64,000 nt of DNA, taken from positions 1-64,000 of the forward strand of contig SVBO01000005.1 in NCBI GenBank assembly GCA_015058845.1. Reading direction: 5' to 3'. Every line of letters starts with the position of its first letter. Within the stretch, counting starts at the first letter, position 1. Position numbers and translations under genes: made by a program. Shown here in pieces: positions 29,792 through 43,134 of this stretch. Below the pieces are notes generated by a model. The model did no database searches and was not told where the DNA came from. It saw only the letters and a list, made by a program, of their open reading frames with translations. The stretch is from Erysipelotrichaceae bacterium (GTDB lineage Bacteria; Bacillota_I; Bacilli_A; Erysipelotrichales; Erysipelotrichaceae).

Positions 29792-29863
29792 ATGTTGTTT
29801 CCAATTAGTGTGATCGTTTCCCCATTTCTGATCTGGCTGATCCAACATGCTCAAAATAGCTAA
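29792..29863 (+). CDS. 23-residue hydrophobic peptide leading the pilus operon
   Basis: A short open frame with a strong GGGAGG site 9 bases before its ATG. It encodes a single hydrophobic helix: MLFPISVIVSPFLIW, then LIQHAQNS. Its TAA overlaps the ATG of the next gene (TAATG), so translation is coupled. It could be a leader peptide, a tiny pilus component, or a peptide resembling small membrane toxins of the Fst/TxpA type (IVSP motif); I cannot decide. AT-rich DNA from 29670 to 29780 is the likely promoter region. Confidence 0.5.
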   Translation: MLFPISVIVSPFLIWLIQHAQNS

Positions 29864-30318
29864 TGAAGAGTGCATATCTAAGTTTCATGGCAGCTATAGG
29901 GGGCATCATCCTCTTTGTCAGCATAGCGATCATCTTTCAATACACAACTGTGTATAAGAATCTATCCTTTGAACTTCGAAACGCTCTGATCCAAGCAGGA
30001 GAAGAAGCCATGGTTCCAGAGGAAGTATGTGAGATGATAGCTTGTAGTGTTGAAGAGATGGAAGATGCAGAGTCGTTTGGGTGTAATGAGGAGGGATTTA
30101 AGGAAGAGTGTGTCGATGTGTATATGGATGAGGATGAGTTCTTTGAGGTGCTAGTAGGCCATCTAGAAAGACTAAAGAGAACGAATCAGAATGTAAGCAT
30201 TACTCTACATGCTTACCATAATCCCCCCTTCATTGCTAAGGCTAGTGTTAGAGTAGATCTAGTTGGTTCTTTCATTAAAGTACCGATCATGATCGAAGAG
30301 ATCTGTTTAGAGAGTTGA
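29863..30318 (+). CDS. Tad pilus locus membrane-anchored protein, unknown
   Basis: 151 residues: one N-terminal membrane helix (about 5-27) and a long acidic extracytoplasmic domain with five Cys (for example MIACSVEEMEDAESFGC). The topology resembles TadE/pseudopilin-like proteins, but I do not see the family signature. First full-length gene of the pilus operon, coupled to the 23-codon frame before it and 8 bases from the CpaB-like gene. Possible role: minor pilin or assembly factor (inference from context). Confidence 0.75.
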   Translation: MKSAYLSFMAAIGGIILFVSIAIIFQYTTVYKNLSFELRNALIQAGEEAMVPEEVCEMIACSVEEMEDAESFGCNEEGFKEECVDVYMDEDEFFEVLVGHLERLKRTNQNVSITLHAYHNPPFIAKASVRVDLVGSFIKVPIMIEEICLES

Positions 30319-30326
30319 GGTAGATT

Positions 30327-31046
30327 ATGAAGAAGAGGTATGTAATTGGTTGTATTGGCTTTATACTCATTGCAGTAGTGAGTTATTTCTTATTCCAAGT
30401 AGCCCTGGATAATGCAGTAGACTTAGTAGAAGTACCCTTTGCAAAGAAGACCCTCTATGCTCATCAAATGATCCAAGAGGAAGATATCGAGATGCGTGAG
30501 GTACCTAGGGTATATGTGCAAAGTGATGTGATTCAAAAGAGAGAAGATATTGCTGGTAAGTATGTGGATCTGTCTAGTAAGATCCCTAAGGGATCCTTGT
30601 TCTATAAGGATTTTCTAGTAAGTGATGAGGAGATCAAAGATCTACCATCCTTGTTACTAAAGGAGGGACAAATGGCTTATCCAATCAAAGTAGATCTACT
30701 GAAAAGTAGTGGTGCCACTTTACACGTCAATCAACATGTAGATATCTATATGACGTATGCAAGTAAAGTCAATAAAGTTAAGGTCACTACGGTAGAATGC
30801 TTGATCAGAAATGCTAGGATCATTAATGTGAAAGATCGCAATGGGCTAAATGTAGGAGAAGAAGATGCGAAGAGCGTTCCTTCGATTGTAGTACTAGCGA
30901 TTCAACTAGAACAAGTAGACTTATTACGTAAGGCACAAGAGATCGGTGAGCTTGATATCTATGCTCCTCGTAGTGAATATAGTGTAGAGGAGGAAGCAGT
31001 GTTGAATGAGGAGAGTACATTGCTGCAGGTGTTGAAAGATGAGTGA
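30327..31046 (+). CDS. CpaB/RcpC-like SAF-domain pilus assembly protein
   Basis: 239 residues with an N-terminal membrane helix (about 5-23) and an SAF domain at about 35-100: VPFAKKTLYAHQMIQEEDIE, then IPKGSLFYKDFL. The rest matches CpaB-type proteins loosely (MAYPIKVDLLKSSGATLHVNQHVDIYMTY is split over two conserved blocks). In Tad systems CpaB/RcpC works with the secretion channel; in Gram-positives its role is less clear. It overlaps the ATPase gene by eight bases. Confidence 0.8.
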   Translation: MKKRYVIGCIGFILIAVVSYFLFQVALDNAVDLVEVPFAKKTLYAHQMIQEEDIEMREVPRVYVQSDVIQKREDIAGKYVDLSSKIPKGSLFYKDFLVSDEEIKDLPSLLLKEGQMAYPIKVDLLKSSGATLHVNQHVDIYMTYASKVNKVKVTTVECLIRNARIINVKDRNGLNVGEEDAKSVPSIVVLAIQLEQVDLLRKAQEIGELDIYAPRSEYSVEEEAVLNEESTLLQVLKDE

Positions 31047-32106
31047 GTTTGATTTCAAGGCTTTGACTCCTTATATTGAGGATAACTTGATCACTGATAT
31101 TAATTACAATGGTAGAGAACTATGGATCGATCATTTAAAGAAGGGTCGATATGCCTGTGAGGACTTCTTTATGGAAGAGCGTTTAGAACAATTCTGTTAT
31201 CGATATGCGAACCATGCGAATCTCTTATTCAACGCAACGTATCCAGTGCTAGAGAGTGAGAATGAGGCTCTACGCTTATCGATCATGCATGATTCAGTAG
31301 CTCGTAGTGGATACAGTATCTCGATCCGTAAGACACCTACATTGATCCGATTGAATAGGGAGAAGATGTTAGAAGAGAACTATGCTACTACTGGTATTCT
31401 AGAGTTCTTAGAAAGAGCAGTAAAAGCTCGTTGTAATATCTTGATCTGTGGTCTTCCTGGGGCTGGTAAGACAGAGTTAGTGAAATATCTTACTACTCAT
31501 ATTCCCTCTAGTGAAAGAGTGATCACGATAGAGGATACATTAGAGTTACATTACTCTAAGCTTCATCCTCATAAAGACTGTGTAGAATTGAAAGTCAATG
31601 ATAACTTTACGTATGTAGATGCGATCAAGGCTTGTCTTAGACAACGACCAGATTGGTTATTGGTATCTGAGGTAAGAGGTGCAGAAGTTGTACAGATGAT
31701 GCAGGCAGTGAGTACAGGGGCAAAGTTGATATCTACACTACACTGTGATGATGCTTCCGCGATCCCTTTACGTTTACTACATATGTTCCCTGGTATGGAG
31801 TTAAGTAATGAAAGGATCTTACATATGATCTATGAGAGTATCGATATTGGGATACATATTTCTTCCACTATTACAGATCAAGGGGTACAACGACAGATCG
31901 AGAAGGTAGTATGTTATCAGATCTTAGATAATAATATCTTAGATCAAAAGGTCATCTACCAAGATCATAAGATGTGTAGTGAATACCCAGAAAAGATCAA
32001 AGTGAAGTTCGATAAGTATGATAAGCGTATGAAGCTTCAAGAGAAAGGAAGTAAGAAAGGAGATAAACGAAATGAATCTAAGAGAAGTTTACGAAAGATA
32101 TCGTAA
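31039..32106 (+). CDS. tadA: Tad pilus ATPase (TadA/CpaF family)
   Basis: A VirB11/PilT-superfamily secretion ATPase, 355 residues. Walker A ICGLPGAGKTELVKY, Asp box TIEDTLELHY, Walker B region RQRPDWLLVSEVRGAE and His box TGAKLISTLHCDDA. Short for CpaF: the N-terminal domain is reduced. It powers assembly of the Flp-type pilus from the cytoplasmic face. The C-terminus is highly basic and overlaps the next gene by 35 bases. Confidence 0.9.
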   Translation: MSEFDFKALTPYIEDNLITDINYNGRELWIDHLKKGRYACEDFFMEERLEQFCYRYANHANLLFNATYPVLESENEALRLSIMHDSVARSGYSISIRKTPTLIRLNREKMLEENYATTGILEFLERAVKARCNILICGLPGAGKTELVKYLTTHIPSSERVITIEDTLELHYSKLHPHKDCVELKVNDNFTYVDAIKACLRQRPDWLLVSEVRGAEVVQMMQAVSTGAKLISTLHCDDASAIPLRLLHMFPGMELSNERILHMIYESIDIGIHISSTITDQGVQRQIEKVVCYQILDNNILDQKVIYQDHKMCSEYPEKIKVKFDKYDKRMKLQEKGSKKGDKRNESKRSLRKIS

Positions 32107-32854
32107 GAGGATCGAGGCATATGGTTTCGTATATCGTCCTTATCTACATACACTCTTACTGATCGCTATGTATCTAGGTGTGATCTTATTTGGTTTCTTC
32201 TTTCGAATGCATACTCTTCCTTTATTGATATTGCTCCTCTCTGTTACACTCGTGATCCCTGTGATCCTATATCTGCAATATGAATATAGCTTTGAGGAAG
32301 CTTGTTTCAAAGAATTTACTAGTTATATCCAACAAGTAAGTGCTGCCTTCAAGATGCATCCTAAGATCCATACAGCTATGCAAGAGGCTCTTCCTTTGGT
32401 CAGTGGGGAACTACATCATTGTGTGAGTGAAGCTTTGTCTAAGATGAATGAGGGAGAGAAGTATGAGGATGCTCTAGCATGTATAGAGGATAAGTATTCG
32501 ATCTATATCTTAGAGAACTTACATCGATTAATGATCGCGGTAGAGGTACATGGAGCTAAGCGTTTTGAAGAGGGGATCCATTTACTGCAAGATGATCTAG
32601 ATGATCTGATCGAGGATATGTACTTACATCAAAAGGAATTACTAGCGATCCAGAAGAAGGTATATATCTTATGTTTACTCTCTATCTTGATCTGTGTGTT
32701 AAGTAAGAATATGTTGATGGATCTATACGCCTTTGAGAAGGAATTGATCTATCAGGGTGTATTACTACTCTTTGTCTTCTCTCTACTTTGCTGTATCATA
32801 CTCTCTCAAGTATTCTTACGTCATTCTTGGCGGATATGGGGGAATGAGAGATGA
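32072..32854 (+). CDS. Tad pilus membrane protein (TadB-like)
   Basis: 260 residues. Two N-terminal helices (about 24-44 and 47-66), a cytoplasmic helical region with the T2SSF-type pattern FTSYIQQVSAAFKMHPKIHT, and two C-terminal helices. AAAGGAG lies nine bases before the ATG, inside the end of tadA. Paired with the following TadC-like gene as the inner-membrane platform. Confidence 0.8.
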   Translation: MNLREVYERYRKRIEAYGFVYRPYLHTLLLIAMYLGVILFGFFFRMHTLPLLILLLSVTLVIPVILYLQYEYSFEEACFKEFTSYIQQVSAAFKMHPKIHTAMQEALPLVSGELHHCVSEALSKMNEGEKYEDALACIEDKYSIYILENLHRLMIAVEVHGAKRFEEGIHLLQDDLDDLIEDMYLHQKELLAIQKKVYILCLLSILICVLSKNMLMDLYAFEKELIYQGVLLLFVFSLLCCIILSQVFLRHSWRIWGNER

Positions 32855-33555
32855 GATATGTGATTTGTGTACTATTATTTGTAGGTATTCTATTACTAGG
32901 TATATATGTGCTTCCTAGAAGAGTATATCTGTTTAAAGAGGATAAACGATATAAACAATTGATGTATGTTTGTTCCCTATTGATGCTTTGGCCTCTAGCA
33001 GATTATTCTTGGATATATGCTACAGGAATAGGAATAGCAGGGATATTCGTATACTTCTATCCTGTATATCAGAAACAGAAAGAGGAAGAGAATAGTCTTA
33101 GAAGATTACGCTATGATTTCCCAATATGGTTAAGACAAATACAGATCTTGTTACAGAACAACAATGTGCAACATAGTTTAGAGAAATCCCTTCCACAGGC
33201 CCCTATGATCATGCACGAGGAATTACGAACTCTGATCGATCGGTTGAATCAGAATGCCACTGATCTAACTGCTTATCTAAACTTTATGAGTGAGTATGAT
33301 ATCTATGAGATCTCTAGAGCTATGAAGTTATTGTATCGTTACCATATGGTGGGTGCTGAGGAGAGCTACCATCAATTCCATCGTATGTTAGAGTCTACGG
33401 GTAAGTGGCTTAGAGCTGAGCGAAAGAGAGATAATGATTCCTTGATCATGATGTTGAATTGGATCGGGTTGATTCCTTTGTTGGGGTGTACTGTGATGTT
33501 TGTTAGTATGATGATTTTAATTGTTATGAATATGATGAAAGGTGGATTAGTATGA
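32851..33555 (+). CDS. Tad pilus membrane protein (TadC-like)
   Basis: 234 residues. Two or three N-terminal helices, a cytoplasmic domain (DFPIWLRQIQILLQNNNVQH) equivalent to the T2SSF fold, and a C-terminal hydrophobic helix. It overlaps the TadB-like gene by four bases (ATGA) and the pilin-like gene by four. Function as platform partner is inferred from order and topology. Confidence 0.78.
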   Translation: MRYVICVLLFVGILLLGIYVLPRRVYLFKEDKRYKQLMYVCSLLMLWPLADYSWIYATGIGIAGIFVYFYPVYQKQKEEENSLRRLRYDFPIWLRQIQILLQNNNVQHSLEKSLPQAPMIMHEELRTLIDRLNQNATDLTAYLNFMSEYDIYEISRAMKLLYRYHMVGAEESYHQFHRMLESTGKWLRAERKRDNDSLIMMLNWIGLIPLLGCTVMFVSMMILIVMNMMKGGLV

Positions 33556-33716
33556 AGATTTTCTTTGAAGAATATGGTATGGTCATCGTGGTGACAGTGT
33601 TAGCACTTGGTATGATCACATTTGCCAATGATTTTAAGGGTACTTTAGGAGACTCTATTGAAGAACAATGGGAAACTATTGTGAGTGAAGCTGAAGGTGG
33701 CGGAGGAGGAGAATAG
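33552..33716 (+). CDS. Flp-pilin-like small protein
   Basis: A 54-residue protein read from the sequence; its ATGA overlaps the TadC-like stop. It begins MKIFFEEYGMVIVVTVLALG: an acidic pair and Tyr followed by a hydrophobic helix, as in Flp pilins (E-Y near the start of the helix). The C-terminal half is acidic and ends in GGGGGE. No long leader peptide precedes the helix, so processing, if any, would remove very few residues. Best candidate in the locus for the main pilus subunit (inference). Confidence 0.7.
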   Translation: MKIFFEEYGMVIVVTVLALGMITFANDFKGTLGDSIEEQWETIVSEAEGGGGGE

Positions 33717-33719
33717 TCC

Positions 33720-34043
33720 TTGAAGATTGGATTTGAGGCTATGTTACTATCCTTCTTCTCGATGTTCTTTCTAGCGATCGGTCTATATTTCATGGACATC
33801 TTGTTCACACATCAAAGTGCTCTGCAGTTACAGGAGTATGCAGTGATGATGATCGAGCATCATGATCGGTATGATTCCATGGTAGCTGAGGCGATCGAAC
33901 AAAAAGCGAATGCGAGTGATCTAGCTGTGTCTGTAACTGAGGTGGGAGATACTTATGGGGTAGAAGTGACTTACTCTGTATCTCTTCCTCTTTTAGAAAG
34001 ACATTTATCCAATACTTTATACACTATCTGTGCTTCACGTTAG
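33720..34043 (+). CDS. TadE-like minor pilin
   Basis: 107 residues starting at a TTG (33720), with a strong GGAGGAGGAG stretch upstream that also encodes the Gly tail of the preceding protein. An ATG seven codons later is the alternative. One N-terminal membrane helix (about 8-28), then a short extracytoplasmic beta-rich domain (VSVTEVGDTYGVEVTYSVSL). Size and place at the end of a Tad operon fit a TadE-type pseudopilin. Confidence 0.7.
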   Translation: MKIGFEAMLLSFFSMFFLAIGLYFMDILFTHQSALQLQEYAVMMIEHHDRYDSMVAEAIEQKANASDLAVSVTEVGDTYGVEVTYSVSLPLLERHLSNTLYTICASR

Positions 34044-35681: not shown

Positions 35682-35999
35682 CTATAAAGTTACATTTACT
35701 GTAGAACCATCTGGTCCAGGTGTATTCGCTAGATACTCTATAATTGCTTCTCTAGCCTCTGGTTTACTTGGCTTACAACCAGTGACCTTCTTAGCCTCAC
35801 CTTTTACTAGAGCCTCTGCAAATCCAGCACATCCAGCATAGCCACAACCACCACAGTTATAATTCGGTAACATTCCTGTTACTGTTTCTACACGTGGATC
35901 TGCTTCTACACGTAAGAACTTATCAGCTATTCCTAAAGCAAACCCAAGAAATGCTCCTAGTACTAGCATCATACCTACTGCATTTACTAAACTTGACAT
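35682..35999 (-). CDS. rnfB: Short RnfB: membrane anchor and first Fe-S domain only
   Basis: 105 residues: a membrane helix (about 6-26) and the RnfB-type [4Fe-4S] domain with C49, C52, C57 and C75 (LPNYNCGGCGYAGCAGFAEA, then GCKPSKP). Ordinary RnfB continues with ferredoxin-like CxxCxxCxxxC repeats and is about twice or more this length; here the frame stops and a perfect terminator follows at once, so no frameshifted remainder exists downstream. GGAGGG precedes the ATG. Last gene of the operon. How ferredoxin docks without the missing domain is open. Confidence 0.9.
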   Translation of the reverse strand: MSSLVNAVGMMLVLGAFLGFALGIADKFLRVEADPRVETVTGMLPNYNCGGCGYAGCAGFAEALVKGEAKKVTGCKPSKPEAREAIIEYLANTPGPDGSTVNVTL

Positions 36000-36011
36000 C
36001 CACTTACCCTC

Positions 36012-36185
36012 CTACTCATTATGAGAAGGATGATTCCCACAGGCAATATCACGACAGCCTTGGCAACTCACCTTCAGATCCTCGCACCCTTCTGGTACAG
36101 GAGTCATACGATTCATAGTATACACGATCGCAAAGATCGCTCCTAGCACACCTGCATATAAGAAAGCAGTCAGCATATTTCCCAT
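36012..36185 (-). CDS. Cys-rich small membrane protein in the rnf operon (NqrM-like?)
   Basis: 57 residues read from the sequence. Its ATG overlaps the rnfA stop (TAATG), and its stop is 13 bases before rnfB. One membrane helix (about 4-23) is followed by a short tail with C34, C41, C44, C49 and two His (GCEDLKVSCQGCRDIACG). The shape (one helix plus four Cys) recalls NqrM, the maturation factor for the iron site of Na+-NQR, and also FeoB-associated Cys-rich proteins; the sequence is too short for me to assign a family. Its position suggests iron or cluster delivery to RnfA/RnfE (inference). Confidence 0.75.
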   Translation of the reverse strand: MGNMLTAFLYAGVLGAIFAIVYTMNRMTPVPEGCEDLKVSCQGCRDIACGNHPSHNE

Positions 36186-36757
36186 TATACGAGACCTGCC
36201 AATCCACTAAATGCAAGTGCCATCAATGCACAAGTAATAAGAGCGATCGGATTACCACGGAAATACTTAGGAGTATCACTAGCCTCTAATCTTTCACGGA
36301 TCTTAGAGAAGATCACAATGATCAATAAGAAGCCTACAGGAACTGCTGTAGAATATACTAACATATGAAGGAAATCATATCCCTTAGAAATATTCTCTAA
36401 TACTACATATAATACTGCACAGTTCGTAGTGATGAGCGGAAGATAGATCCCTAGTGATTTATATAAACTAGGAGAGAACTTCTTGATCACCATTTCTACG
36501 AATTGTACTAATGATGCAATGACTAGGATAAAGGAGATCAGTTTCATGTATTCGATCTCAAGTGGTACTAATACTTGATAATACAGACCATATGTTACCA
36601 AAGAGGCACTTAAGATGACGAAGATGACTGCCATACCCATCCCAATCGCACTACTAGATTTCTTAGAAACTCCTAGGAAAGGGCACATACCCGTAAACTT
36701 AGTAAGAATAATATTATTGATCAATGCTGCTGAAATAAACAATGTAAATAGATCCAT
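36185..36757 (-). CDS. rnfA: Rnf electron transport complex subunit A
   Basis: 190 residues with six membrane helices. The start ALINNIILTKFTGMCPFLGV and the centre TTNCAVLYVV hold the conserved Cys residues that ligand the intramembrane iron centre shared with RnfE. GGAGGG lies upstream. Paired with RnfE in inverted topology. Confidence 0.96.
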   Translation of the reverse strand: MDLFTLFISAALINNIILTKFTGMCPFLGVSKKSSSAIGMGMAVIFVILSASLVTYGLYYQVLVPLEIEYMKLISFILVIASLVQFVEMVIKKFSPSLYKSLGIYLPLITTNCAVLYVVLENISKGYDFLHMLVYSTAVPVGFLLIIVIFSKIRERLEASDTPKYFRGNPIALITCALMALAFSGLAGLV

Positions 36758-36759
36758 AA

Positions 36760-37440
36760 TTACTTACCCTCCTTAGCAGCGGCAGCCGCTGCCTTAGCAA
36801 GTGCTGCTTGTTTCTCAGCCTTCTTGCCATTATACAGAGCCATGAGACCAGATAACACACCAAATGTTAAGAAAGCACCCGCTGGTTGTGTGAATAAAGA
36901 GATAACGAAATCACTAGGAATGATCTCAATATTGAAGAATACTTGTGATGGATCAAATGGATTAGACATACTTAATACACCAGTACCTAGTAATTGACGG
37001 ATCAGAGCCAATGCCACTAATGCTAACGTATATCCAAGACCCATACCAAGCGCATCTAAGATCGAATCAAATACACCATTCTTACTAGCAAATGCCTCTG
37101 CACGTCCTAGAATGATACAGTTCACAACGATCAAACTAATAAATGTACCCAGTGATTGAGCAAGCGTATTCGCATAAGCATACATCAACATTTCTACGAC
37201 TGTCACAAGAGTCGCAATGACGACGATATACACAGGAATACGAATATCATTTGGAGTGACTTTACGTAATAATGAGATAATGATATTAGAGAATAATAGT
37301 GTAATGATAACACATACTCCCATACCGATCGCATTATCTAGATTGTTAGATACCGCTAGTACCGAACAAATACCTAAATATAGACCAAATACTGGGTTTT
37401 CACGAACAAAACCCGAACTAAAATTCTTCCATCTGTTCAT
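36760..37440 (-). CDS. rnfE: Rnf electron transport complex subunit E
   Basis: 226 residues, six membrane helices. The family start NPVFGLYLGICSVLAVSNNL and the central SLIVVNCIILGRAEAFAS carry the conserved Cys pair. The C-terminus is Ala/Lys-rich (AALAKAAAAAAKEGK), probably unstructured. It follows rnfG by 12 bases. Confidence 0.96.
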   Translation of the reverse strand: MNRWKNFSSGFVRENPVFGLYLGICSVLAVSNNLDNAIGMGVCVIITLLFSNIIISLLRKVTPNDIRIPVYIVVIATLVTVVEMLMYAYANTLAQSLGTFISLIVVNCIILGRAEAFASKNGVFDSILDALGMGLGYTLALVALALIRQLLGTGVLSMSNPFDPSQVFFNIEIIPSDFVISLFTQPAGAFLTFGVLSGLMALYNGKKAEKQAALAKAAAAAAKEGK

Positions 37441-37452
37441 ATACTCACCCTC

Positions 37453-37959
37453 CTATTTAAAGTTAGCAGCATAATGTGCACCCACTTCTGCTAACGTATC
37501 TACCACTGCTTTAGATGTGATCGTAGCTCCAGAGATCGTATCGATCTTATTCTCAATATTACTGCTAGTAACTACTGCCTTATATTCAGGTTCATTGACC
37601 TTCATACCAAAACCTGGTGTATCTGCTAACTCTAAACACTCAAAGCCTAAGATACTACCATCTTGTGCCACACCTACGATATACACGATCTCTGATTGAT
37701 AGCCATATGTTCTTACCTTATATGCATATCCCATATCACCAGCTACAAAGATCTGTTCGATCGAACTGTCTGTAAGATCGAATTCTACTGCCTTATAATT
37801 AACTCCCTCACCAAAGATCTTGGCAAAGTTAGCAGCTTCTGCTTGTGCTTTATTGTATTCAATGATTGGTGCTGTAATATCATTCACGATCGATAAGATC
37901 CCTCCTGACATCACACAGATCCATGCTAAGAAAGCCGCTAGATATAAACTCTTCTTCAT
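37453..37959 (-). CDS. rnfG: Rnf electron transport complex subunit G
   Basis: 168 residues: one membrane helix (about 5-26) and an extracytoplasmic FMN-binding domain. The flavinylation motif ISGATITSKAV puts the FMN-carrying Thr at position 146; LADTPGFGMKV is the other signature. It needs ApbE (22,433-23,584). AGGAGGG precedes the ATG. Confidence 0.96.
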   Translation of the reverse strand: MKKSLYLAAFLAWICVMSGGILSIVNDITAPIIEYNKAQAEAANFAKIFGEGVNYKAVEFDLTDSSIEQIFVAGDMGYAYKVRTYGYQSEIVYIVGVAQDGSILGFECLELADTPGFGMKVNEPEYKAVVTSSNIENKIDTISGATITSKAVVDTLAEVGAHYAANFK

Positions 37960-37971
37960 ACTTGCGCCCTC

Positions 37972-39840
37972 CTATTTTCTATTAGCGATCTCTAACATCG
38001 CTGACTTTACTGCTGTAGAAGTAGTTGTTTGAGAGAAAGTAGCCCCAGATACAGCATCATTCATGAAGACATTCTCTAAAGTAGCACCCTTCTCGATATA
38101 TGGACCAACGATCGCATTCTCAGCATAACTATCGATTCCCTTAGAATCGCCCCATTGCTCTACTTCCCAGCCGATCAAAGCATGTGTAGTAGCATCAAAT
38201 GTGAATACAGCAATATTAGGAATCGCACTCTCATTTCCCTCATGCTTAAGATCATACGCCATATAATACCCATTATACACCACTCTGACCTTGATCACAT
38301 CTTCATCCTCATAGATCACTTCAGACTCATTCATATACAGATTCACAACTTCTCTAGCCGCACGAACAGTAGAACGTACTGTACCAGTAGCTCCACTTAC
38401 CACATCATCTAATACCTCGATCTTAGAGAAATTATCTAATGCAATACCTTCAAATTGTGCTAGATACTCAGGATCCATTACCATCTCAGCAATGCCTGGT
38501 GTATCCCCTAAAGAGATCACTTCCATCTTACTAATACTCATCGTATCTTCATTCACATATACTGCAAACACATTTGCTTCCTTCTCCTTATTACTAGAAG
38601 ACTGTGCTCCATCTGTCCAAACAGTATACTTGATATCATTGCCTACTTGCTCAGCACCAATAATATTCGCACGCCATTGTAGGATCTCAGTAGTATCTCC
38701 ATTTACAAAGACACGTGGATCTTTCGCTGTTACTTGACTACCCACTAGACCAACAACTACTGTACCTACTACGAAAGTAGTGGCTACGATCATAACATTC
38801 TTCTTAAGATTCTTAATCACACTACCACTCATTACACTATCGATAAGAGGAGATACCATATTCATGATCAAGATAGAATATAATACACCCTCTGGTAGAT
38901 TTGCCTTAACACGGATCAATACTGTTAGAATACCACACCCTACTGCATATAGAACTCTACCAGCAGGATGCGTAGGATTTGTTACAGGGTCTGTTGCCAT
39001 GAATACAGCACCAAATAATAGACCACCAGTAAGAATACTGAATACAGGATACCAAAGACCAGTTCCATGAGAGAAACCAATAATAGTGGTTAATACAAAT
39101 ACAGTACCTACATAGAATACTGGGATCCTCCAATCGATCACCTTACGGATCGCCAGGAAGATACCTACTGCTATAATAGCCAATGAGAATGTTTCACCAA
39201 TAGCCCCTTGATAGAAACCAAGTAGCATATTCCACATACCACCAAATTGCTCTAATAAACGAGTCCCTAATACCTCTTGTTCTACGACCCAACCTAGTTG
39301 AGAAGCCATATACGTAGTAGGAGTTACTGTAGTAATAGCATCGTTAATGATACCACTTCCTGTTAGAATACCACCCGCTGCATCTGTTAAATATGGTACA
39401 GTCTTGCCAGAGAATGCTGCGAATACGACTGCTCTACCAATACCTGCTGGATTAAAGATATTACTACCAAATCCTCCAAAGATCAATTTCCCAAAGAAGA
39501 TCGCAAAGAAGCTACCTACTCCAATGACATATAATGGAGTTCCGATAGGACAAGTCATTGCGAAGATCACTGCTGTGATAAGCGGGAAAGACCCTGAGAT
39601 ATGTTGCTTAATATTCTTCTTCATCATGATCGCCCAAGCTACCTCAGTCACAATAGCAACGATACAAGAAGTTAATAGCATCATGATCACTTTGATCCCA
39701 TAGGCACTTCCATGTACTGTATAGTTAAAATACACACTGAAACATGCTACGATCAATAAGCCAAAGGCTAATTCCTTCATGATCTGTTTCGTACTTTGTG
39801 GTTGACGATAGTTAGGAGAAGTTCTAAATGTGAATTTCAT
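37972..39840 (-). CDS. rnfD: RnfD fused to two extra FMN-binding domains
   Basis: 622 residues, roughly twice the usual RnfD length. Residues 1-342 are a complete RnfD/NqrB-type membrane domain (about nine helices; NIFNPAGIGRAV, MATDPVTNP; the loop NDAITTVTPTT is where RnfD carries covalent FMN). An added helix at about 345-368 leads to two RnfG-like domains: the first at about 372-503 with DTPGIAEMV and VVSGATGTV (Thr485), the second at about 505-622 with AVSGATFSQ (Thr601). A separate, intact rnfG follows, so the complex has three RnfG-type domains. No stop or frameshift interrupts the fusion. Confidence 0.95.
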   Translation of the reverse strand: MKFTFRTSPNYRQPQSTKQIMKELAFGLLIVACFSVYFNYTVHGSAYGIKVIMMLLTSCIVAIVTEVAWAIMMKKNIKQHISGSFPLITAVIFAMTCPIGTPLYVIGVGSFFAIFFGKLIFGGFGSNIFNPAGIGRAVVFAAFSGKTVPYLTDAAGGILTGSGIINDAITTVTPTTYMASQLGWVVEQEVLGTRLLEQFGGMWNMLLGFYQGAIGETFSLAIIAVGIFLAIRKVIDWRIPVFYVGTVFVLTTIIGFSHGTGLWYPVFSILTGGLLFGAVFMATDPVTNPTHPAGRVLYAVGCGILTVLIRVKANLPEGVLYSILIMNMVSPLIDSVMSGSVIKNLKKNVMIVATTFVVGTVVVGLVGSQVTAKDPRVFVNGDTTEILQWRANIIGAEQVGNDIKYTVWTDGAQSSSNKEKEANVFAVYVNEDTMSISKMEVISLGDTPGIAEMVMDPEYLAQFEGIALDNFSKIEVLDDVVSGATGTVRSTVRAAREVVNLYMNESEVIYEDEDVIKVRVVYNGYYMAYDLKHEGNESAIPNIAVFTFDATTHALIGWEVEQWGDSKGIDSYAENAIVGPYIEKGATLENVFMNDAVSGATFSQTTTSTAVKSAMLEIANRK

Positions 39841-39851
39841 TGCCTTTCCTC

Positions 39852-41135
39852 CTATTTCAATAATTGAATACGACGTTTCGCACGACGTACACTCTCAGTA
39901 ACATCTAATTTAGATGGACATACATACGTACATAGTCCACACTCGATACAAGACATCACATCCATAGTCTTAAGACCATCGATATCTCCTGCCTTCTCTA
40001 ATTGGCGAATACGTACTGGTTGGATCCCTGCTGGACAATGATCCGTACAACTACCACAACGAAGACAAGCTACACTATCAATCGGCGTTGTCTTCAAGAT
40101 TGTAATAGCATTTGAATAAGAAGAGATCACGAATTGATCATTGATCACAGTCTTACCCATCATAGGTCCCCCAGCGATCAATAATACATCTTCTGCTAAG
40201 TAACCACCTAGCTTCTCTACGATCTCTTTTACTTGCATACCCACTGGTACCCAAACATTCGCTGGTTTGATAGCATCTCCTGATACTGTAACCATCTTAT
40301 GTGTAATACCATGGCCCTCTAACATAGCCTGAGCAAAAGAGATAGCTGTAGTAGCATTACTTACGATCACCCCGATCTCTCCTGGTAAACGATCATAGCG
40401 CTTCTTGAATAACTCAAATACTACAGTTCTTTCCCAACCCATTGGATATACATCACGTACTTCTGCTACACGTACATTCTCTACCCCTTGTAAAGCTTCA
40501 CGAACATGTTTGATCAACTCTACTTTCGTACTCTTAATAGCGATCACTGCTTCCTTAGCCATAGCCATCTTGACCATCGTAGAAGCGCCGATCACTAATT
40601 CCTTTGTATATTTCTCCATCATCACAGCATCTGCCGTAATATAAGGCTCACACTCTACCCCATTGATCACCACAGTATGAATATCCTTAGCGCCCTGATA
40701 CTTGATATATGCTGGGAAACCAGCCCCACCACAACCAACGATACCAGCGTCCTTCATGAAAGTGATCAACTCTTCACGAGAACTATGAGGTGAAATAGGA
40801 TCAAAAGATGGTTCTTCTTCATTAAGTCCATCACTAATGATCTCTAGATGTGGTTGCACACGAAGACTAGGATGCATAATATTCACGATCTTACCGACTG
40901 TTCCTGATACACTACTGAAAACTGGTACAATGAAGTTATCATTACGTGTGGCAAGTTTCGTACCGATCTTGACATGATCTCCCTCATTCACATGTACTTC
41001 AAATTTCGTAGAATTCATATGGATCAATGGTATATATACTTTAGATGATGCTTGTACTGTCACTACACTCTCATGCGCAGTAAGCTCTTTCTTACCATCT
41101 ACATGTTGACACATTGGTCCTGTAAAAATCGCCAT
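39852..41135 (-). CDS. rnfC: Rnf electron transport complex subunit C
   Basis: 427 residues. GIVGCGGAGFPAYIKY is the NADH/FMN-binding loop; two [4Fe-4S] motifs follow at C357/C360/C363/C367 and C396/C399/C402/C406. It links the complex to NAD. First gene of the operon; AAAGGGAGA precedes the ATG. Length is typical of compact RnfC proteins without the long C-terminal repeat region. Confidence 0.96.
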   Translation of the reverse strand: MAIFTGPMCQHVDGKKELTAHESVVTVQASSKVYIPLIHMNSTKFEVHVNEGDHVKIGTKLATRNDNFIVPVFSSVSGTVGKIVNIMHPSLRVQPHLEIISDGLNEEEPSFDPISPHSSREELITFMKDAGIVGCGGAGFPAYIKYQGAKDIHTVVINGVECEPYITADAVMMEKYTKELVIGASTMVKMAMAKEAVIAIKSTKVELIKHVREALQGVENVRVAEVRDVYPMGWERTVVFELFKKRYDRLPGEIGVIVSNATTAISFAQAMLEGHGITHKMVTVSGDAIKPANVWVPVGMQVKEIVEKLGGYLAEDVLLIAGGPMMGKTVINDQFVISSYSNAITILKTTPIDSVACLRCGSCTDHCPAGIQPVRIRQLEKAGDIDGLKTMDVMSCIECGLCTYVCPSKLDVTESVRRAKRRIQLLK

Positions 41136-41808: not shown

Positions 41809-43134
41809 ATGGAAACTAAGATAGCGATCATTGGTGGTGGTTTGGCTGGGTTACATACGGCTTATGAGTTAGAGCAGCGTGGGTTCAAGAACATTGTGAT
41901 CTATGAGGCTTTAAAGATCGGGGAAGGGGCGAGTGGTCATAATACAGGGAAGGTCACGATCCAACAGGCAGGAAAATACCACTGTTTGAATATAGAAGAT
42001 GCAAAGACTTTCTATGAAGCGCAAGTAAGAGCTCTAGATAAACTTACTAAGATCATTCAAGAGCATGATATCTCTTGTGGTTTTCAAGAATGTTTAAGTG
42101 CTTTGACTTCTCATAGTTATAGTGGACTTACGCAAGAGTGTACTTGCTATGAAGATCTTGGACAGAGCTATACCATGGATCAAAGTCAAGATATTACCCT
42201 ACAGATCCCTTCTCAGTATTCTTATCAACCCAAAAAGTTCTTATATGGTCTATCAAAGATCCTACGATATACTCAAATCATAGAGAATTGTCGGATCCTG
42301 AAGATCACTAAGAACTCAGATCACTATTTACTACATAGTACACATAATGAATTTACAGCTTCTCATATCATCATCTGCACGAATTACCCGATCTTTCCCA
42401 AAACATTCTCTGTATACCTACATCAGATCGGTCAGTACATGATCACTACTAAGCAACCACATACCTCAGATCGATACACCCTATCCAACGACCAACCAAA
42501 CCTCTCTTACAATGCCTCTAGTATTGAGACTCGTTATACGGGATTTGGGGCGAGGGTGGGGGTATATAATGATCTAAAGAAACTCTCCCAAGCATTCTCA
42601 GACACCTTCCATACACCCATTGGAACTATCACCTATATCCAAGATACTCTCACAAGCGATGGTCTGCCGATAGCAAGTCCTGCTCATTTATATCAGAATA
42701 TATATGTGGTAACGGGATTCAATAAGTGGGGTAATCTGAATGCTTTAGTATGTGCTGAGGTAATCGGTAACTTGTTAACAGGTCAAAAGGATTCAGTTAA
42801 CAAGTTACTTTCATACACTCGTGCTTCTTTGTATAATGGAACATTTTGGTCAGAAAATGTACGTACCATCTCATCATTACTACAACGTACTCCTTCTACT
42901 TGTATATACATCGATGATGTACCGTATGGGGAATATACTAAGAATCATACTACCTATCTAGTATCCTTGGTATGTCCTCATTTAAAAGGAATACTACGCT
43001 TTAATCCAGTCAGTGAGCAATATGAATGCCCAGTTCATGGATCAGTATTTAATTACGATGGTAAGGTACTACACTCTCCTGCTGTTCAAGCATTATCAAC
43101 GCCCTCTCAGGGAAGCGAATTTTCTTCGTACTGA
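41809..43134 (+). CDS. FAD-dependent oxidoreductase with C-terminal Rieske domain
   Basis: 441 residues. An N-terminal DAO-type FAD domain (IAIIGGGLAGLHTAYELEQR, then GEGASGHNTGKVTIQQ), and a Rieske [2Fe-2S] domain at about 370-430 with LVCPHLKGIL and YECPVHGSVFNYDG (C-x-H and C-x2-H ligands). This architecture occurs in amine/amino-acid-oxidase-like proteins of Bacillota. Substrate unknown. No Rieske partner genes nearby. Confidence 0.9.
   Translation: METKIAIIGGGLAGLHTAYELEQRGFKNIVIYEALKIGEGASGHNTGKVTIQQAGKYHCLNIEDAKTFYEAQVRALDKLTKIIQEHDISCGFQECLSALTSHSYSGLTQECTCYEDLGQSYTMDQSQDITLQIPSQYSYQPKKFLYGLSKILRYTQIIENCRILKITKNSDHYLLHSTHNEFTASHIIICTNYPIFPKTFSVYLHQIGQYMITTKQPHTSDRYTLSNDQPNLSYNASSIETRYTGFGARVGVYNDLKKLSQAFSDTFHTPIGTITYIQDTLTSDGLPIASPAHLYQNIYVVTGFNKWGNLNALVCAEVIGNLLTGQKDSVNKLLSYTRASLYNGTFWSENVRTISSLLQRTPSTCIYIDDVPYGEYTKNHTTYLVSLVCPHLKGILRFNPVSEQYECPVHGSVFNYDGKVLHSPAVQALSTPSQGSEFSSY

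Follow-up and report, generated by a model that had tools for sequence, protein, structure and literature searches.

An unnamed gene encoding a small cysteine-rich membrane protein, here called X, lies between rnfA and rnfB of an Erysipelotrichaceae bacterium and accompanies Rnf complexes with a short RnfB subunit across the class Bacilli. The window that was analysed is a 64,000-nucleotide stretch of contig SVBO01000005.1, in which X is a frame of 57 codons on the minus strand (36185-36012). Conservation far beyond that of a chance frame establishes X as a real gene, and its distribution supports a role as a dedicated companion of Rnf. What the protein does is less certain; our leading reading, which we hold tentatively, is that X may be an iron or Fe-S assembly factor dedicated to the Bacilli-type Rnf, similar to NqrM in layout and not in descent.

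Organization of the rnf operon

The operon is transcribed from the minus strand in the order rnfC-D-G-E-A-X-B, and consists of rnfC (39852..41135), rnfD (37972..39840), rnfG, which carries an FMN_bind domain (37453..37959), rnfE (36760..37440), rnfA, with a TIGR01943 match above cut-off (36185..36757), X (36012..36185), and rnfB (35682..35999). The RnfB product is a short form of 105 residues that comprises one helix and a PF04060 FeS domain and has no ferredoxin domains. As the original prediction held, the start of X overlaps the stop of rnfA: direct reading shows that the ATG of X (36185-36183) and the TAA of rnfA (36187-36185) have one base in common within TAATG. At the other end, the TAG of X (36014-36012) is overlapped by the Shine-Dalgarno sequence of rnfB, AGGAGGG (36007..36013, minus strand), which lies 7 nt from the rnfB ATG.

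The translation of X, MGNMLTAFLYAGVLGAIFAIVYTMNRMTPVPEGCEDLKVSCQGCRDIACGNHPSHNE, contains the single N-terminal helix, four cysteines and two histidines that had been predicted, with Cys34, Cys41, Cys44 and Cys49 in a C-x6-C-x2-C-x4-C arrangement and the histidines at positions 52 and 55. AlphaFold, from a shallow alignment of 11 rows, returned a confident helix at residues 2-27 and an unstructured tail. Basic residues follow the helix, suggesting that the tail lies on the cytosolic side of the membrane. The presumed client of an assembly factor is also present in this operon type, because Cys25 and Cys113 of RnfA, presumably the ligands of the intramembrane 2Fe-2S cluster, are invariant across 134 RnfA sequences.

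Several other features of the region deserve mention. RnfD is 622 residues long, with a C-terminal extension that contains FMN_bind stretches, and is likewise long (616-619 residues) in two related loci (L073 and L074). To our knowledge, an RnfD with flavin domains has not been described. A multi-flavinylated RnfG has been published (PMC8238504). By eye only, a Tad/Flp pilus-like cluster on the opposite strand adjoins the operon (29863-34043), with CpaB-like, CpaF-like ATPase and TadB/TadC-like genes and a 54-residue Flp-like frame, and an FAD oxidoreductase whose C-terminus carries a Rieske-like motif, CPHLKG...CPVHGS, is found at 41809-43134.

Conservation of X

A family-wide search recovered relatives of X in 191 of 273 genomes of its own family, and in all 41 Erysipelotrichaceae loci that were read the gene sits precisely between rnfA and rnfB. 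Among 34 homologues (33-59% identity), all four cysteines and a P-x-P-x-G-C-E motif are retained, with N25, P29, P31, G33, C34, E35, C41, C44 and C49 invariant. The original prediction was to be abandoned if relatives failed to keep the cysteine pattern; they do keep it. The pooled pN/pS over seven close pairs is ~0.10, and X is thus under strong purifying selection.

In a wider alignment of 37 diverse members, only P31 and C-x2-C-x4-C are invariant (with x5 as the last spacing in three of the 37), N25 and T28 are each present in 95%, the first cysteine is kept in 70%, and the histidine pair shows no conservation. The most reduced versions are found in a family of small-genome relatives (f12), where mini-X frames of 35-40 residues, consisting of the helix, a CxxC and one or two further cysteines, occupy the position between rnfA and rnfB (L194-L198); the genomes concerned measure 0.6-1.0 Mb.

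Distribution across the Bacilli

Among 395 Bacilli genomes, the X profile has matches in 168 and rnfA in 214. All but three of the X-positive genomes carry rnfA (165 of 168), and X occurs in only 3 of the 181 genomes without rnfA, a co-occurrence that is partly phylogenetic because large rnf-less clades are counted many times. Closer comparisons point in the same direction. Within the Erysipelotrichaceae of this sample X and rnfA are fully concordant (25 genomes with both, 11 with neither), and in one genus of the family (g60) both have been lost within the genus. A rescan with the 37-member alignment found X in further genomes.

Several families have an operon without X, in which rnfA abuts a short rnfB, and 19 of 23 genomes that have lost X from the operon keep a copy elsewhere. 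These trans copies are found in two conserved settings: in one, X directly precedes a dCMP deaminase gene, and in the other it is flanked by pgm and ung (neighbours named by eye; L145-L157, with X near 1500, L076 and L077; L086, L144, L147 and L159). Both settings involve uracil or deoxynucleotide genes, possibly by chance. In family f9, which still has X in the operon, a dCMP deaminase gene is found downstream of rnfB, suggesting, without proving, that rnf relocated and left the trans copies in place. The association with Rnf also holds in a family with mostly trans copies (f17), where X was found in 19 of 22 rnfA-positive and 1 of 6 rnfA-negative genomes (one-sided Fisher test, ~0.003, calculated by hand). 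Five genomes with a short-RnfB Rnf, most of them incomplete, yielded no X (G479, G502, G515, G588 and G311).

A phylum-wide scan found matches in the same class only, and a match in Desulfosporosinus from the collection scan (L042) was dismissed as chance, there being no rnf nearby. In the operons checked outside the Bacilli, rnfA and rnfB are separated by 27 nt in Fusobacterium and by 0-20 nt in E. coli, Methylococcus and the Clostridia, the last covered by four loci; X is missing from each of these operons. The proposed check for small frames between these genes was therefore positive throughout the Erysipelotrichaceae loci read and negative in the other groups checked, in agreement with the premise that Rnf operons do not usually include such a factor.

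Comparison with NqrM and FeoB-associated proteins

X is unclaimed by the Pfam, NCBIfam, PHROGs and PDB families that were searched. For profile comparisons with hhalign, controls were made by shuffling the columns of X within the helix and tail blocks (200 shuffles). Because shuffled profiles sometimes reach 85-93% probability, percentages carry little meaning for profiles as short as these, and the evidence lies in the gap between the real and shuffled scores.

The original prediction likened X to NqrM, which has been reported as necessary for the cluster of NqrD/NqrE or predicted to supply it with iron (PMC12174285; PMC6209661). The resemblance in layout stands: both proteins have one N-terminal helix followed by a basic residue and Thr, a Gly-Cys and a presumably cytosolic Cys tail, and both are encoded in or beside the operon of a complex with an intramembrane 2Fe-2S cluster. 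The two differ in cysteine spacing and in the complex served, Rnf for X and NQR for NqrM. A relationship by descent is not borne out. In a profile search of the 34 and 37 X members (E up to 10, HMMER filters on), PF04400 was not among the 25 families listed, nor did PF04400 have a match over cut-off in the genome itself. With hhalign, X aligned to NqrM through the helix only, at 43%, a value equalled or exceeded by 12 of 200 shuffles. Furthermore, I-x-G-S-C-G-G, invariant in nine NqrM sequences from public records (only the fetched DNA was tested), is absent from X. We therefore reject homology between X and NqrM.

The comparison with FeoB-associated proteins (PF12669), also tiny helix-plus-cysteine proteins and common in Firmicutes, gave a mixed outcome. 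The hhalign alignment, over the cysteine part, scored 94.8%, with none of 200 shuffles as high, whereas the window protein itself has no PF12669 match and the matches of other members are weak (10 of 34 and 16 of 37, best E 8.1e-4, with the cut-off shown for the first member only). X has (C)-Cx2Cx4C in place of the Cx3-5Cx2-3Cx6-8C described for FeoB-associated proteins (PMC8749426), and its gene lies in rnf and not with feoB. X is not a stray FeoB-associated gene either, as the genome encodes a separate PF12669 protein directly after a feoB frame. That separate protein also argues against a broader proposal, in which X would be a thiol or iron protein of general function, of the FeoB-associated type and linked to Rnf by phylogeny and not by function. 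The weak PF12669 matches and the conserved positions of the trans copies would fit such a protein, but the coupled translation of X inside the rnf operon and its loss together with rnfA in families and genera would not, and we regard this proposal as the least probable of those considered.

A short RnfB without ferredoxin domains

RnfB has no room for ferredoxin domains in any of 80 X-positive genomes sampled. Most of these RnfB frames are 90-150 residues long, and frames of 386 residues or more in the sample are other proteins with weak scores. RnfB of family f9 is longer (183-194 residues) and contains two tandem FeS (CX2CX4C) domains and no ferredoxin domain (L085:6004-6558, L092:4452-5030 and L202:1282-1833). 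Conversely, X is absent from all 8 Bacilli genomes with a long RnfB, seven of which encode an RnfB of ~260-280 residues; in the eighth (G485) the gene is cut by a contig end and the genome was grouped by genus.

This pattern underlies the main rival to an assembly role, that X is a stoichiometric redox subunit, in effect a miniature RnfB, in which a CX2CX4C Fe-S cluster would replace the missing ferredoxin domains by taking electrons from ferredoxin or relaying them. The position of X directly before rnfB is compatible with this idea, as is the layout of a helix followed by C-x2-C-x4-C, spaced as in the N-terminal half of RnfB. The hhalign score between X and the RnfB N-terminus is 93.7% over 57 columns, with none of 200 shuffles as high, compared with 21% for FeoB-associated proteins or NqrM against RnfB. 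Yet X gives no hit to PF04060 or TIGR01944, and it has neither LPG-NCGACG, nor the downstream fourth cysteine of the FeS domain, nor the rest of the PF04060 domain; the alternative fourth cysteine is absent in 30% of members. Because real helices have local patterns in common that shuffling destroys, common descent of X with RnfB, or with PF12669, is put forward as a suggestion only. Also difficult to accommodate in a stoichiometric subunit are the mini-forms with other cysteine spacings, the many genomes in which the gene is unlinked and the few in which it was not found, and the tail that is not folded in the AlphaFold model.

Nor can the pairing of X with a short RnfB carry the argument for compensation. 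In the RnfA tree, the long-RnfB Bacilli cluster with Clostridia, Fusobacterium, E. coli and Bacteroides (support 99/96), and the pairing may therefore be a single ancestral event and would not in itself demonstrate replacement of the ferredoxin domains by X. We rejected co-occurrence as proof on these grounds. The few Bacilli genera with a classical long-RnfB Rnf (L093, L094, L096 and L100) probably acquired it by transfer, judging from the tree. Taken together, we consider a redox subunit possible but rather unlikely. An extended version, in which a distinct and undescribed Bacilli Rnf uses the short RnfB and X as a new electron-input module, with X a redox subunit that arose from, or came to resemble, the N-terminus of RnfB, seems to us less likely again. 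Additional Rnf components are not without precedent, as RnfH of the Azotobacter vinelandii Rnf1 system is one; RnfH is a cytoplasmic subunit without a cofactor (PMC12174285), in contrast to the membrane-anchored and cysteine-bearing X.

A possible role in Fe-S cluster assembly

Iron delivery or cluster assembly best fits the combination of an unlinked gene, drifting cysteine spacing and an unstructured tail. In Bacilli-type Rnf complexes, whose RnfB lacks ferredoxin domains, X would be an accessory protein anchored by its N-terminal helix, with a tail, presumably on the cytosolic side, whose C-x2-C-x4-C may bind iron or a labile Fe-S cluster, with help from the upstream Cys, or from His, where these are present. 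As the complex is assembled, X would hand the iron or cluster on to RnfA/RnfE, and the intramembrane 2Fe-2S cluster would thereby be loaded onto the invariant RnfA cysteines. Such a job would parallel that ascribed to NqrM for NqrD/NqrE, without detectable common descent.

Several observations argue for this role. X directly follows rnfA and is coupled at both its start and its stop; it co-occurs with rnfA, in the operon and in trans; the number and spacing of its cysteines drift, from a three-cysteine core to the mini-forms; the helix is predicted with confidence and is followed by basic residues and an unstructured tail; and its profile similarity to FeoB-associated cysteine-rich proteins exceeds all shuffles. 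Working from an unlinked gene would also suit an assembly factor better than a stoichiometric subunit. Against the role stand the five short-RnfB genomes, mostly incomplete, in which X was not found, the match to the RnfB N-terminal profile, which would fit a redox role equally well, and the comparison with NqrM, which gave no sequence relation above noise. Moreover, X is not generally required for cluster insertion into RnfA/RnfE, because long-RnfB Rnf complexes, in Bacilli and elsewhere, do without it.

Respiratory complexes commonly include short hydrophobic subunits, and X could instead be a structural single-helix subunit whose cysteines bind a structural metal or form a disulfide, with no part in electron transfer or iron delivery. 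The strict link to Rnf and the limited conservation beyond N, T, P and three cysteines would be expected of such a subunit. The trans location of the gene in many lineages would not, and the invariance of the three cysteines in 37 diverse members argues for a metal or thiol role. We consider a purely structural function improbable, and retain an assembly role as the tentative preference.

Implications for Rnf biology

No description of a cysteine-rich gene in rnf operons was found in the open-access literature searched, and a 2025 review of Rnf and Nqr mentions NqrM for NQR only and names no Rnf counterpart (PMC12174285). Rnf is a main energy converter of anaerobes, and X marks an Rnf variant that is common in Bacilli of anaerobic habitats. 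Because the RnfB of this variant lacks ferredoxin domains, its electron entry must differ from that in the solved structures. An unnamed gene that is distributed class-wide and tied to one type of Rnf thus provides a direct handle on how the intramembrane Fe-S cluster is built.
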